Of a stretch of DNA of 64,000 bases, positions 1 through 9,146 are shown piece by piece. The position numbers and the translations under genes were made by a program. The DNA is taken from NCBI GenBank assembly GCA_032620915.1, contig CP136052.1:2022501-2086500 (forward strand), given 5' to 3'. The DNA is from Oscillospiraceae bacterium NTUH-002-81. Its GTDB lineage: Bacteria > Bacillota > Clostridia > Lachnospirales > Lachnospiraceae. Each line of letters begins with the position of its first letter. The first letter of the stretch is position 1. The notes below the pieces were generated by a model that did no database searches, was not told the origin of the DNA, and saw only the letters and a list, made by a program, of their open reading frames with translations.

Positions 1-338
1 TTGGCGTTGGTCAGGTAATCCTTGACGCATTTGATCTGCATATCCCCGCGTTTTTCAATGATCTGCGCCACCTTGTCGATATCCTCCACAAACTGACAGA
101 TGATACGGATGCCTGCGATATCCTCCATCTCCTCCTCGATCATCTCGAAGGGAATCTTTTTCTTCTGTGCTTTTTCCAGAATACTGGATACGGATTTTAC
201 CCGCCCATCCACCCGCAGGAACGGACAATAGCGCCCGTGCTCCCGGTATTCCGTCATCAGATGGTCAAATTTCAGTGAAAGTTCTCTGACAGCCAGCTCA
301 TACGGCTCCAGAATTTCTCTCCACAGTTGTATCTCCAT
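1..338 (-). CDS. relQ: Small alarmone synthetase RelQ/YjbM (C-terminus beyond window)
   Basis: This GTP pyrophosphokinase would make (p)ppGpp from ATP and GTP/GDP in the cytoplasm. The 112 visible N-terminal residues follow the RelQ/YjbM pattern: an N-terminal helix with WREILEPYELAVREL, then GRVKSVSSILEKAQKK, then EEMEDIAGIRIICQFVEDI, the opening of the RelA/SpoT synthetase fold. No HD hydrolase domain precedes it, so it is a small synthetase rather than a bifunctional Rel. The rest lies beyond base 1. The ATG at 338-336 follows AGGGG. The gene is preceded by a structured leader repeat and a TATAAT box (see 401-496). Family assignment is secure; RelQ versus RelP rests on the N-terminal similarity. 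Confidence 0.88.
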   Translation of the reverse strand, partial: MEIQLWREILEPYELAVRELSLKFDHLMTEYREHGRYCPFLRVDGRVKSVSSILEKAQKKKIPFEMIEEEMEDIAGIRIICQFVEDIDKVAQIIEKRGDMQIKCVKDYLTNA

Positions 339-400
339 AAAACTACCCCTTTATAATTGTTTCAATACAGACTCATGAACCCGCACTGACGTGCTCACTT

Positions 401-483
401 GCCTGCTGACGCAGGCGGTTCGTGCGTTAATGGCGCAAGAAAAGGAAATGCCGCTTGCAGCGTCGCTCCCTTTTCTTTTGCGC
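401..483 (-). ncRNA. Candidate structured leader RNA / dispersed repeat A, copy 1
   Basis: Read on the minus strand, the element starts with GCGCAAAAGAAAAGG, which pairs with CCTTTTCTTGCGC to form a long hairpin. That hairpin is topped by an inner CGCT-GCA-AGCG stem. A linker leads to a second hairpin, GCCTGC-GTCA-GCAGGC. A close copy lies at 8988-9071, where the inner stem is CGTC-GAA-GACG, so two base pairs have changed together. A TATAAT box lies 7 nt upstream of the first GCGC, so transcription would begin about at the foot of hairpin 1. In this copy another small hairpin, GCAC-GTCA-GTGC, follows before relQ. No known RNA family is recognised. Confidence 0.6.
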
Positions 484-490
484 TCATTAC

Positions 491-496
491 ATTATA
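491..496 (-). promoter_or_regulatory. -10 box of relQ leader promoter
   Basis: The minus strand reads TATAAT, a perfect sigma-A -10 box, 7 nt before the leader repeat. The -35 is weak: GAGACA or GACAAA at 17-19 bp spacing. The same -10 and spacing recur at repeat copy 2. Confidence 0.55.
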
Positions 497-6004: not shown

Positions 6005-7040
6005 TTACTGCTCGATTGCTACATAGTCGTCCGGAACGGTGATGCCCAGATCCTCGCAGATCGCAGCATTGTATTTCTTGGTGAACTGCGGAGCGTACTC
6101 GATGGGCATGGTGGAAATATCCTCGCCGTTTAAGATCTTTGCAGCCATCTTACCGGTAGCGGTACCCAGATCATAGTAGCTGATGGAAAGGGTTGCCACG
6201 CCGCAGCCTGCACAGATACCTTCCTCGCCTGCGATTACCGGAACCTTTGCCGGACGGCAGATGTTGTCAAGGATGGCAGTATTGGAAGCTACGGTATTGT
6301 CTGTCGGAACGTAGATCACATCGCTCTCGGAAGCAGCGGTGGTTGCTACGGAAGACAGATCGTTGGAATCAGAGAAGGAGTACATCTTGCAGGTGTATCC
6401 CAGCTCTTTCAGATAACCCTGGATGGTCTCTACCTGATACAGAGAGTTGGGCTCTGCGGAGCAGTACAGAAGGCCGATGTTCTTGGCATCCGGGAACAGC
6501 TCATGGAGCATATCAGCCTGTCCGTCCAGCGGAGCCAGGTCGGAGGTTCCGGAAATGTTGCCGCCTACGGTGCCGTCGAAATCAGACAGCTCCAGGGCAA
6601 CGCCGTACTCGGTAACAGCGGTTCCCAGGATCGGGATCTCGTTGGTGCCTGCTGCTGCTGCCTGCAGGGATGCAGTTGCGTTTGCCAGGATCAGGTCTAC
6701 ATTGTTGGATACAAATCCGTTGATAATCGTGGAACAGGTGTTGGAATCACCCTGTGCGTTCTGCTCGTCGAACTTCACGCCGTCCTCACCGAACTCCTCT
6801 ACAAGGGCATCCTCAAAACCTTTGGTTGCGGCATCCAGTGCCTCGTGCTGTACCAGCTGGCAGATACCGATATTGAATACTTTGTCAGAAGCGGCGCTAT
6901 CAGATGCGCTCTCCTCTTCTGCTGTGTCCTCTGCGGTTGTATTATCAGCTGCAGAAGTGTCTTCCCTTTGTGCTGCTGCCACATGCAGTGACGCTGACGC
7001 ACATCGTTGCTGCCAGAAGCAGCGCTGCTAACTTTTTCAT
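6005..7040 (-). CDS. ABC transporter substrate-binding lipoprotein (TrpX/COG2984 type), +1 frameshift in this sequence
   Basis: This extracellular solute-binding protein belongs to the ABC_sub_bind family. The N-terminus from ATG 7040 (after GGAGGAG) is a lipoprotein signal, MKKLAALLLAATMCVSVTAC, with the lipid-anchor cysteine at residue 20. That frame stops after 12 more codons. The body (FNIGICQLVQHEALDAATKGFEDAL..., ending in DDYVAIEQ) is read in the next frame. Removing one G from the GGG at 6964-6966 joins them as ...GSSTKEDTSAADNT..., giving about 344 residues. An acid- and Ser/Thr-rich linker precedes the two-lobed domain. The break is probably a sequencing error. The first gene of the importer operon, it has its own promoter at 7097-7125. 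Confidence 0.87.
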
Positions 7041-7364: not shown

Positions 7365-8957
7365 TTATTTTAATGTATCCGCCGGACTCACATCGCTGCC
7401 GGGGCTGTAGGTGAAGGAAATAAAATCCCCCTCCCGGAACCGGATGATCTGCGGGAATTCTGCCACAGGGAAATCATAGATGGTCTCATCCCCTGCAAGC
7501 ATGAGGTAATAATAGGTGTTGCCCTCCAGCGTCACAGGCGCCAGATGCTCGATGGTGCCGGATTTTTCCAGGGCGTCCGTCGTTCCCTGGGAGGTGATGC
7601 CGTTGGTGGCCAGCAGTGCCCGGTAAGATTTCTCACAGTCTTTCACCGTATCGCCGATGGCAACCCACTGGTATTTCTGAATGTTGACCATGGCATATTT
7701 TTTCACCAGACCGGCGTCGTCCTTCAGGGCGATAAAATAGGTGGGCTCATTGGCAATGTTCATGAGCAGCGGAAAGCTGGCCCGGTAGCCTAAGTTCTGT
7801 ACCTGTCCCTCTGCGGAGGACATGGCGGAATCCTCGATGGCGCCCTCAATGGCATAAAATCTTGTCTCCATGGTACGCTGGTTCATGAGAACGAAGCCCA
7901 CGTTGGACTGGTCGGTGTTGACCGACGTAATACCCGTGTACACCCACACGTCGTCATCCAGGGCAATATAGTTATAGCCGTTGGTCGTCTGCAGGCAGTC
8001 CTTCTGTCCCAGCACGCTGTTCAGGAAGCCGTGCTTCAATGTGCCGTGATAATCGTACAGATTCACCAGCAGATCCGCGGAATAGACCCGGTCTACCCAG
8101 GTAGGTACATTTTCCACGTCGTACAGGGTGGTCTCGCCGGTCTGGGCGTTGCACAGCACCACTTTTCCCACCGTCTGGCCGCCGAACAGGCCGATGTTGA
8201 ATTTTTTCACCGGTGCGATCCAGTAAGGCGTGCCGTTATCGTCGATCTCAAAATTGATGTCGTCAAAAATGTACGTGGGATACCGGAAACGCAGGTGCCG
8301 GTAAATGTTACGGTTGAAATATTCGGACTCGGAATAGCGGATGGCATCCGAAAGCTTCACCAGCTCCGTGTTCTGGGTCGTCATATCAATCAAAATATAG
8401 GCCGGAATGCCATCTGCCTGGTTGGTGAGCCATTTGATGGGGCTGGCGTACACCAGAGGTGATACCCGCACCGGCTTGTCCTGATAGTTGATCTGGGAAT
8501 AAAGGTCACTCACCTCAAACTGGGACACCATGTCCACCATGCTGCCCATTTTCCGATTGCCCAGCAGCATGGCCGTGGAGCGGTCCAGCAGCGGGATCTT
8601 GTCGTAGGACACCTGCTTGATATCCTCCGTGAATTCCCGGTCGTCCACCTGCATGAGCTGCTGATATTTCTTCGCATTGATGATGGGCGAAGACAGCAAG
8701 CTTCCCACCATGTACACGGCTGCCACCGCCGCGATCAGCAGGATCACGGTTTTTACCGGCTTGCTGGTTTTTAACTCCTCCGGGTGTGACAGATGCGGAA
8801 AAGCCTTCATCAGCAGCACGACCACCAGAATAAAGATCAGCGCCGACCAGAAACCGCCGGCGTGAATGTTGATGGCGGGTAACGTGACGTAATAATAAAT
8901 CCCCAATACCAGCACGAGGATCAGCGCCCCGATCCCGTACTTTTTCTTTTTGCTCAT
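7365..8957 (-). CDS. Conserved membrane protein of unknown function
   Basis: This 530-residue protein matches no family I can name with confidence. It begins KKKKYGIGALILVLVLGIYYYV, followed by a second hydrophobic segment (about 37-55) and a third (about 70-90). A large domain of some 430 residues, presumably extracytoplasmic, follows. It is rich in Tyr and Asp and in beta-type alternation (for example FNIGLFGGQTVGKVVLCNAQTGETTLYDV). The ATG at 8957 is chosen because GGAGG lies 6 nt upstream; an ATG at 8963 directly abuts the Shine-Dalgarno. Its leader carries structured repeat A copy 2, shared with relQ. Unlinked in function to its neighbours as far as I can see. Confidence 0.75.
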   Translation of the reverse strand: MSKKKKYGIGALILVLVLGIYYYVTLPAINIHAGGFWSALIFILVVVLLMKAFPHLSHPEELKTSKPVKTVILLIAAVAAVYMVGSLLSSPIINAKKYQQLMQVDDREFTEDIKQVSYDKIPLLDRSTAMLLGNRKMGSMVDMVSQFEVSDLYSQINYQDKPVRVSPLVYASPIKWLTNQADGIPAYILIDMTTQNTELVKLSDAIRYSESEYFNRNIYRHLRFRYPTYIFDDINFEIDDNGTPYWIAPVKKFNIGLFGGQTVGKVVLCNAQTGETTLYDVENVPTWVDRVYSADLLVNLYDYHGTLKHGFLNSVLGQKDCLQTTNGYNYIALDDDVWVYTGITSVNTDQSNVGFVLMNQRTMETRFYAIEGAIEDSAMSSAEGQVQNLGYRASFPLLMNIANEPTYFIALKDDAGLVKKYAMVNIQKYQWVAIGDTVKDCEKSYRALLATNGITSQGTTDALEKSGTIEHLAPVTLEGNTYYYLMLAGDETIYDFPVAEFPQIIRFREGDFISFTYSPGSDVSPADTLK

Positions 8958-8987
8958 AATCATCCTCCTTCATATAACATAACCTAT

Positions 8988-9071
8988 GCCTGCTGTCGCA
9001 GGCGGTTCGTTCGATAAAGGCGCAAGAAAAGTAAATGCCGTCTTCGACGTCGCTTCCTTTTTCTTTTGCGC
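8988..9071 (-). ncRNA. Candidate structured leader RNA / dispersed repeat A, copy 2
   Basis: This is the same two-hairpin element as 401-483: GCGCAAAAGAAAAAGG pairing with CTTTTCTTGCGC, an inner CGTC-GAA-GACG stem, then GCCTGC-GACA-GCAGGC. It lies between a TATAAT box and the ribosome binding site of the 530-residue membrane protein gene. The 7 nt between TATAAT and GCGC is the same as in copy 1. Confidence 0.6.
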
Positions 9072-9078
9072 TTTTTAT

Positions 9079-9084
9079 ATTATA
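9079..9084 (-). promoter_or_regulatory. -10 box upstream of leader repeat copy 2
   Basis: The minus strand reads TATAAT, 7 nt before the repeat. I see no good -35, so an activator or extended contacts may be needed. Confidence 0.5.
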
Positions 9085-9146
9085 CTATATATCCGTGTTC
9101 CTCGCATAGACTATATTGATCAGTATTGTCCCGGGAGTGGAAAGAA

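Follow-up and report, generated by a model that had tools for sequence, protein, structure and literature searches.

A dispersed repeat of Lachnospiraceae, probably inserted 3′ of TATAATG-like sequences, with two old-looking copies before relQ and a gene of unknown function

The window, a stretch of 64,000 nt of contig CP136052.1 from the 3.62-Mb genome of Oscillospiraceae bacterium NTUH-002-81 (the own genome), contains two copies of a structured element which are probably old members of a dispersed, non-autonomous mobile repeat of Lachnospiraceae (about 75–135 nt), inserted immediately 3′ of TATAATG-like sequences and in one orientation. The repeat forms a family with a common structure, it lies in sense orientation and next to −10 boxes, the promoter is found free of the element at the compared loci, and some copies are near-identical and recent. 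The features of the window are listed below; G003 is a genome of the same genus.

372..489, minus strand: copy 1, full length (hairpin A, then module B), with a covariance-model match at 372–503; letters checked
428..489, minus strand: hairpin A of copy 1, foot TAATG (485–489) paired with CATTA (428–432)
372..426, minus strand: module B of copy 1, a closing stem enclosing two hairpins (401–416 and 383–394)
491..496, minus strand: −10 box TATAAT of relQ, with a TG extension at 498–499; also present without the repeat in G003 and G001
3..338, minus strand: start of the downstream gene, which the window edge truncates; its protein has a RelA_SpoT domain of the relQ type
8986..9078, minus strand: copy 2, shortened, with hairpin A at 9014–9078 and a B hairpin at 8988–9003; it ends after the first B hairpin
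9079..9084, minus strand: TATAAT, the −10 box of the gene that follows copy 2; G003 has it as TAGTATAAT, and G001 and G002 as TAGTATACT, all lacking the repeat
7365..8963, minus strand: gene after copy 2, encoding a 532-aa protein of unknown function

An earlier note on this DNA had placed two related elements at 401–483 and 8988–9071. Both copies are real, with a mean column identity of 86% over 136 columns (85%, E 4.7e-24, in a second comparison by BLAST search of the own genome); copy 1 is longer than had been described and extends to 372, which adds the second hairpin and the closing stem of module B. The inner stem reads CGCT/AGCG in one copy and CGTC/GACG in the other, as had been observed, and the TATAAT boxes at 491–496 and 9079–9084 on the minus strand do lie 7 nt from the ends 483 and 9071. 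The covariance model R1 was built from 13 aligned copies of the own genome; it matches copy 1, which is in its training set, at 372–503 (139.4 bits, E 1.2e-33) and recovers copy 2, without which it was trained, at 8953–9091 (100 bits, E 3.8e-23). The foot stem of hairpin A is TAATG/CATTA in copy 1 and ATAAA/TTTAT in copy 2, and is located between the −10 box and the RNA start predicted in the note. The folding z-scores of the two copies are −4.16 and −2.79, and a perfect box downstream is absent in both. The window copies are diverged and look old, and they may no longer be able to move. Rfam gave 0 matches in the window at the gathering cut-off; at E ≤ 1 in 13 loci it gave seven rows (tRNA, T-box, group II intron pieces and one sub-threshold sRNA match), none at element positions. 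PF04607 matched the relQ-type 270-aa protein (L029:655-1467, minus strand) with E 8.9e-35, and the 532-aa protein after copy 2 has no Pfam match, its relatives being present in 15 of the 37 genomes searched, the own genome included.

The repeat unit consists of hairpin A, with conserved AAGCG/CATTT mismatches, and the three-way module B. BLAST found it at 21 places in the own genome, and RNAalifold on the 13 full-length copies gave 40 pairs, 19 of them with changes on both sides. The two copies of the note belong to a family with 42 R1 matches in the own genome at E ≤ 1e-3 (35 of these at 40 bits or more). Some of the matches are adjacent units within a single locus, and a few belong to a distantly related repeat. 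Relaxing the threshold to E ≤ 10 raises the total to 70 rows, many of which are echoes of the palindrome on the opposite strand. Two subfamilies differ in hairpin A and in the closing stem of module B (GAAC/GTTC and GGTTCC/GGAACC), and units occur singly or in tandem. Divergent relatives in four genomes (G171, G114, G139 and G137) have tandem arrays of units that lie after a TATAAT-like box and ahead of the start codon.

At E ≤ 1e-3, R1 matches were found in 10 of 61 genomes, the own included. At E ≤ 1e-6, with scoring limited to 8 candidates in each genome, 42 of the 397 genomes sampled from the same family had matches. Across the class, 4 of 291 sampled genomes had matches, three of them in the same family and one in the same order. 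The occurrence among sampled genomes is patchy. A pattern scan of named genomes gave at least 118 stretches, 80 of which are listed as loci; among these 80, 34 have an R1 match at E ≤ 1e-3, and by name their records are Lachnospiraceae, genera of that family, or unplaced Clostridia or Bacillota, with no R1 match in a record of another phylum. Plasmids gave no match. An unannotated faecal record labelled Bacteriophage sp. (MT836487.1, L423 2001–2129) carries a copy at 77% identity, and this record may be a bacterial contig. The compensatory changes had been read in the note as selection on RNA pairing, and 96 matches from foreign genomes strongly support selection on pairing, with both-side changes in 36 of the 40 pairs and 97.5% of cells pairing, counts that lean towards the model since the alignment was fitted to it. 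The covariation score of these 96 matches is 0.440, compared with 0.137 when shuffled and at most 0.068 when slid, so covariation is present in the wider family as well.

The start of the repeat lies in or directly after the −10 box. Three sets of copies were used for counting: 35 of the 42 own matches (at least 40 bits), 73 of the 96 foreign matches (weak and second-unit rows dropped), and 34 of 36 pattern-scan rows among the matches listed (second rows of two loci dropped). With genes called by simple hexamer scoring, the downstream gene is co-oriented in 33 of the 34 own copies with a call (35 in total), in 67 of 71 foreign copies (73 in total) and, among the matches listed, in 25 of 29 pattern-scan copies (34 in total). 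The random orientation named in the note as evidence against its reading is thus not seen, with 125 of 134 called copies in sense orientation (pattern-scan part among the matches listed), nor do most copies lie far from promoters. The only own exception, at 900382, has by eye a co-oriented 110-aa cupin-like frame with a ribosome site; the others are L173, L185, L187 and L152, and L308, L269, L300 and L313, of which L185 and L152 look real, and the calls at L173 and L187 are weak. The upstream gene runs in the same direction in 91 of 135 copies (pattern-scan part among the matches listed). Replication strand as the cause of orientation was rejected, since own copies that oppose the majority of their chromosome half (at about 94, 292, 900, 935 and 1136 kb, and at 2621 kb) still point with their gene, a weak rejection because the halves were judged from copy orientation only.

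Within the 25-nt zone before the hairpin core, a −10 box with at most one mismatch was found in 27 of 32 own and 65 of 73 foreign copies, and in 23 of 34 pattern-scan copies, 11 being without one, among the matches listed. An equal zone further upstream has it in 2 of 32, 23 of 73 and 8 of 34 copies, and a zone downstream of the element in 2 of 32, 14 of 73 and 11 of 32, the last figure of each series again among the matches listed. R1 includes the −10 columns, so the own and foreign sets are biased towards TATAAT; the pattern-scan set was picked by a pattern inside the hairpin and afterwards filtered with R1. Another definition of the anchor gave lower counts (18 of 31 own, 40 of 69 foreign and, among the matches listed, 20 of 34 pattern-scan copies), because that anchor fell in the foot. 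The −35 boxes at proper spacing number 36 in 114 copies against 14.4 expected (pattern-scan part among the matches listed), as is expected of host promoters. A TATAAT-like box stands in the left flank of most copies, also in element-free relatives, and stop-codon and terminator sites occur too.

The note had also proposed, as its alternative to regulation, a mobile structured repeat that carries a promoter. The mobile and structured parts of this proposal are supported, while promoter carriage by the window copies was rejected, because element-free relatives have a −10 box at the same place. In G003, which has one weak R1 match elsewhere, relQ is preceded by ATGCTATAATG and then a leader without any element; G001 has ATGCTATAAT without an element, and G002 has no clear −10 box at relQ. 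The box before the gene after copy 2 in G003 shares the left flank ACGGATA with the own locus. Ten further own loci were compared by eye with G003 (tblastn, 0.82 Mb of G003). A clear −10 box was found at the matching place for 659353, 2757781, 1977531, 2550941, 1691408, 1712254 and 925183, and a weak one for 956391; two copies are not at a −10 box, 942771 being directly after a terminator T-run, also present in G003, and 2586120 where a gene ends (3′ side), away from the promoter. The 12 own loci set against this element-free congener therefore comprise 9 with a clear box, both window copies among them, 1 with a weak one and 2 not at such a box, in comparisons between species, partly by eye and over 0.82 Mb of G003, so that loss in G003 is possible locus by locus; 900382, 292095, 1179104 (upstream gene only) and 1136630 (contig edge) are outside the 12. 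On these comparisons, the element probably did not bring the promoter at the window copies. Similarly, for a copy in genome G249 (L142), six siblings (G424, G425, G426, G427, G428 and G429) have a TTGAG-type −35 box and TG(A/G)TATA(A/C)T with no element, and the seventh, G423, shows no such promoter in the stretch read.

Recent movement is indicated by four G249 copies, which have 1–2 differences in 122 nt (a fifth differs by 6–7) and whose near-identity means that some copies moved recently. These recent copies sit directly after TATAAT, and their right end is TATGATATAAT in three of the four and TATGATATATA in the fourth, so insertion there leaves a −10-like box on both sides. Across the sets, an exact TATAAT lies within 28 nt past the element end in 25 of 135 copies, compared with 4 of 135 further on, and with one mismatch allowed the numbers are 58 and 30 (pattern-scan part among the matches listed in both). 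The −10 repeats on the two sides of one copy are more similar (10.33 of 18) than when shuffled (9.64, p 0.0005), which corresponds to direct repeats in part of the copies; in the consensus fold the two ends do not form an overall inverted repeat. The junctions can be placed only to within several nt.

A TATAATG-like sequence may be the target, since in 36 of 142 copies (7 own, 19 foreign and 10 from the pattern scan among the matches listed) the stop codon of the upstream gene lies in the initial 40 nt of the match. These sites are in sense orientation too. At one gene end (L174, in G223) the element follows ATA TAA|TGA, the same codons are present in the element-free G435, and TATAATGA occurs in only 1 of 4 element-free relatives; this single case speaks for a target defined by its sequence and not by being a promoter. 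The own copy at 1410227 ends a frame closing in GGMGGMM, which we take to be the GroEL ending. At 659353 the host −10 variant TATGAT, also in G003, is matched by ATCA in the 3′ arm of the element, and at 1712254 the host TATACTG, also in G003, is matched by ACAG there (both by eye); at 1977531 the 3′ arm has no match to the −10 box.

The folded molecule has G-U at 55 positions and A-C at 21, and this excess indicates that it is the sense strand that folds. Its triloops are GNA in 165 of 201 cases and its tetraloops GNNA in 99 of 133 (67 GNYA and 32 GNRA), against 17 of 174 and 13 of 163 in flanking hairpins, a control set with a longer minimum stem. In DNA, the hairpins d(GCGAAGC) and d(cGNNAg) have exceptional stability, and in RNA the favoured loop is GNRA; the GNA and GNNA loops of the repeat suggest that it folds as single-stranded DNA. 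PMC10527192 describes short DNA hairpins of extraordinary stability.

Taken as a mechanism, the probable course is that the repeat would insert directly 3′ of a TATAATG-like sequence in a single orientation, at a target chosen by sequence, perhaps through pairing of the target TAATG with CATTA of the element in the manner of an IS200/IS605 guide. It may move as folded single-stranded DNA, with a mobilising enzyme that would act in trans. Most surviving copies would then be found at promoter −10 boxes, because such sequences are oriented there with the gene and the insert is tolerated, and others at TATAATG- or TGATG-type stop codons. The gene would retain its own promoter, its transcript would now start at the foot of hairpin A, and the resulting 5′-terminal mRNA hairpin would be a by-product, perhaps with a stabilising effect on the message. 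Descriptions of small bacterial repeats usually place them in intergenic DNA at no particular position; a family linked to −10 boxes and gene direction would offer a simple route by which dozens of genes acquire structured 5′ leaders, and a natural test case for the choice of promoters by a mobile element.

A more specific form of this mechanism, which we put forward tentatively and regard as rather doubtful, is that the folded single-stranded DNA is a parasite of promoters which finds the −10 box by CATTA–TAATG pairing and inserts into the non-template strand where the open promoter complex has melted the DNA, or into paused transcription bubbles; the latter are included because one own copy and another subfamily sit directly after terminators. 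If true, it would explain place, orientation and the covarying foot together, and bacteria would have a counterpart of those retrotransposons whose targets are transcription starts. The subfamily in question (L275, L279, L294 and L298) has the same AAGCG...CATTTG core and lies directly after terminators, and at L275 the terminator is that of a T-box leader (T-box at 6223–6447, element core at 6489).

It could also be that the element inserts anywhere and is retained mainly where its 5′-terminal hairpin protects the message, so that place and direction would reflect selection and not target choice. The orientation, nearly always with the gene, is consistent with this, RNA initiated from the −10 box would have its 5′ end at the foot of hairpin A or close to it, and 5′-terminal structure protects mRNA in Firmicutes. 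However, the stop-codon sites are in sense orientation too, the recent near-identical G249 copies are already directly after TATAAT, and the box starts 21–30 nt before the core in 106 of the 115 box-bearing copies (pattern-scan part among the matches listed), so we consider retention by selection unlikely as the main cause.

The first proposal of the note, a shared cis-regulatory RNA whose transcribed hairpins would regulate relQ and other genes on a common signal, agrees with the conserved hairpins and compensatory changes, with the sense orientation, and with the site between the −10 box and the start codon, including the tandem leader units of the four genomes with divergent relatives. It is not supported by the comparison of genes: 104 of 119 downstream proteins were scanned against Pfam, and of the 160 families none occurs in more than 3 of the 104 (pattern-scan part among the matches listed), which gives no common regulon and speaks against a (p)ppGpp-linked leader, and orthologous genes in close species lack the element. 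In addition, stop codons of upstream genes are overlapped, the foot stem is upstream of the predicted RNA start, GNYA loops are twice as frequent as GNRA, and no Rfam family matches, which together make such a leader very unlikely. HPr kinase and Metalloenzyme each have a count of 2 among the downstream Pfam families, and repeats stand before proteins with like starts in two genome pairs (L166 and L191, L150 and L258), from either inheritance or repeated insertion at one promoter. Searches for riboswitch-like leader motifs in Lachnospiraceae will pick up this repeat, in which a promoter, conserved hairpins, compensatory changes and a start codon come together with no shared regulon.

That a mobile repeat with a promoter of its own is retained as a promoter donor is highly improbable, for although TGnTATAAT adjoins 58 of 108 copies, exact TATAAT is enriched past the element end, TATGATATAAT is common to three of the recent G249 copies and some copies elsewhere have a −10-like box at the right end, the left −10 box is present in element-free relatives, with the same unusual variant (TATGAT, TATACT) at two loci, upstream −35 boxes are enriched, later units of tandem arrays have by eye no perfect −10 box of their own, and neither window copy has a perfect downstream box.

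No mobilising enzyme was found in the search made. Y1_Tnp (PF01797) is present in the own genome as a remnant only, an IS200-type transposase after a recombinase gene (L022); it was matched in 7 of the 10 repeat-holding genomes of the first set and in 8 of 16 element-rich genomes, being absent from the other 8. R1 had no match within 12 loci around Y1 genes. A link to RAYT or Y1 enzymes was rejected for these reasons, and membership in an IS608-type system fails because the enzyme is absent from half of the element-rich genomes. The repeat resembles IS200/IS605 elements (IS608, ISDra2) in having a hairpin with conserved mismatches at the insertion point, and probably in inserting 3′ of a short retained sequence; as far as PMC5934647 describes it, IS608 inserts 3′ of TTAC at a target chosen by base pairing with the transposon, and in the present repeat a comparable role may fall to the pairing of TAATG on the target side with the CATTA next to hairpin A. 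Unlike IS200/IS605, the repeat has a longer target-side box, its pairing partner is 3′ of the hairpin, and some copies have a −10-like box on both sides.

REP and REPIN sequences, thought to be moved as single-stranded DNA by a TnpAY1 protein according to PMC6006769, are likewise small, palindromic and dispersed, but the present repeat is larger, has a three-way fold, is tied to −10 boxes and gene direction, has no RAYT found with it and, by eye, lacks the terminal GTAG or CGTC palindrome that PMC3733652 gives for REP families. In the description of PMC3049150, the pneumococcal BOX, RUP and SPRITE repeats are modular, small, near genes, arranged in arrays and thought to be parasitic; BOX and RUP differ in their terminal inverted repeats and target duplications, and BOX is described there without a link to −10 boxes or a single orientation. 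Correia elements are small repeats near gene starts, one being immediately downstream of the mtrCDE promoter; they carry their own promoters, Neisseria is unrelated, and the likeness is by description only, in the part of PMC10969869 that treats them. A literature search found no description of the repeat, which may be among the 3161 candidate structured RNAs of human microbiomes (250 of them palindromic) that PMC8040213 reports; we would class it as a new family of small mobile repeats whose target is unusual.

Several other repeats were observed near these loci. A subfamily in Acetatifactor, Lachnoclostridium and Lachnospiraceae (L300, L269, L266 and L248) has by eye GGTATAATG-type −10-like boxes on both strands around the hairpin. 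A separate repeat in G032 (L056, L064, L068 and L074), with ends TAACAGTTCAGCC and GGCTGAACTGTTA by eye, has an inner three-way fold of the same style, with distant relatives in the own genome near 1254261, 1467702, 2476854 and 2782447. A short repeat, ATGAGCATAAA...hairpin...CGATATG(C/T)GAATG, is present at L080 and, downstream of the element, at L030 and L034; it follows two own copies and occurs again near 2782447. In G249, a second repeat of about 133 nt (L142 1696–1867) adjoins the element, with some 40 further rows in that genome, most of them 91–99% identical.
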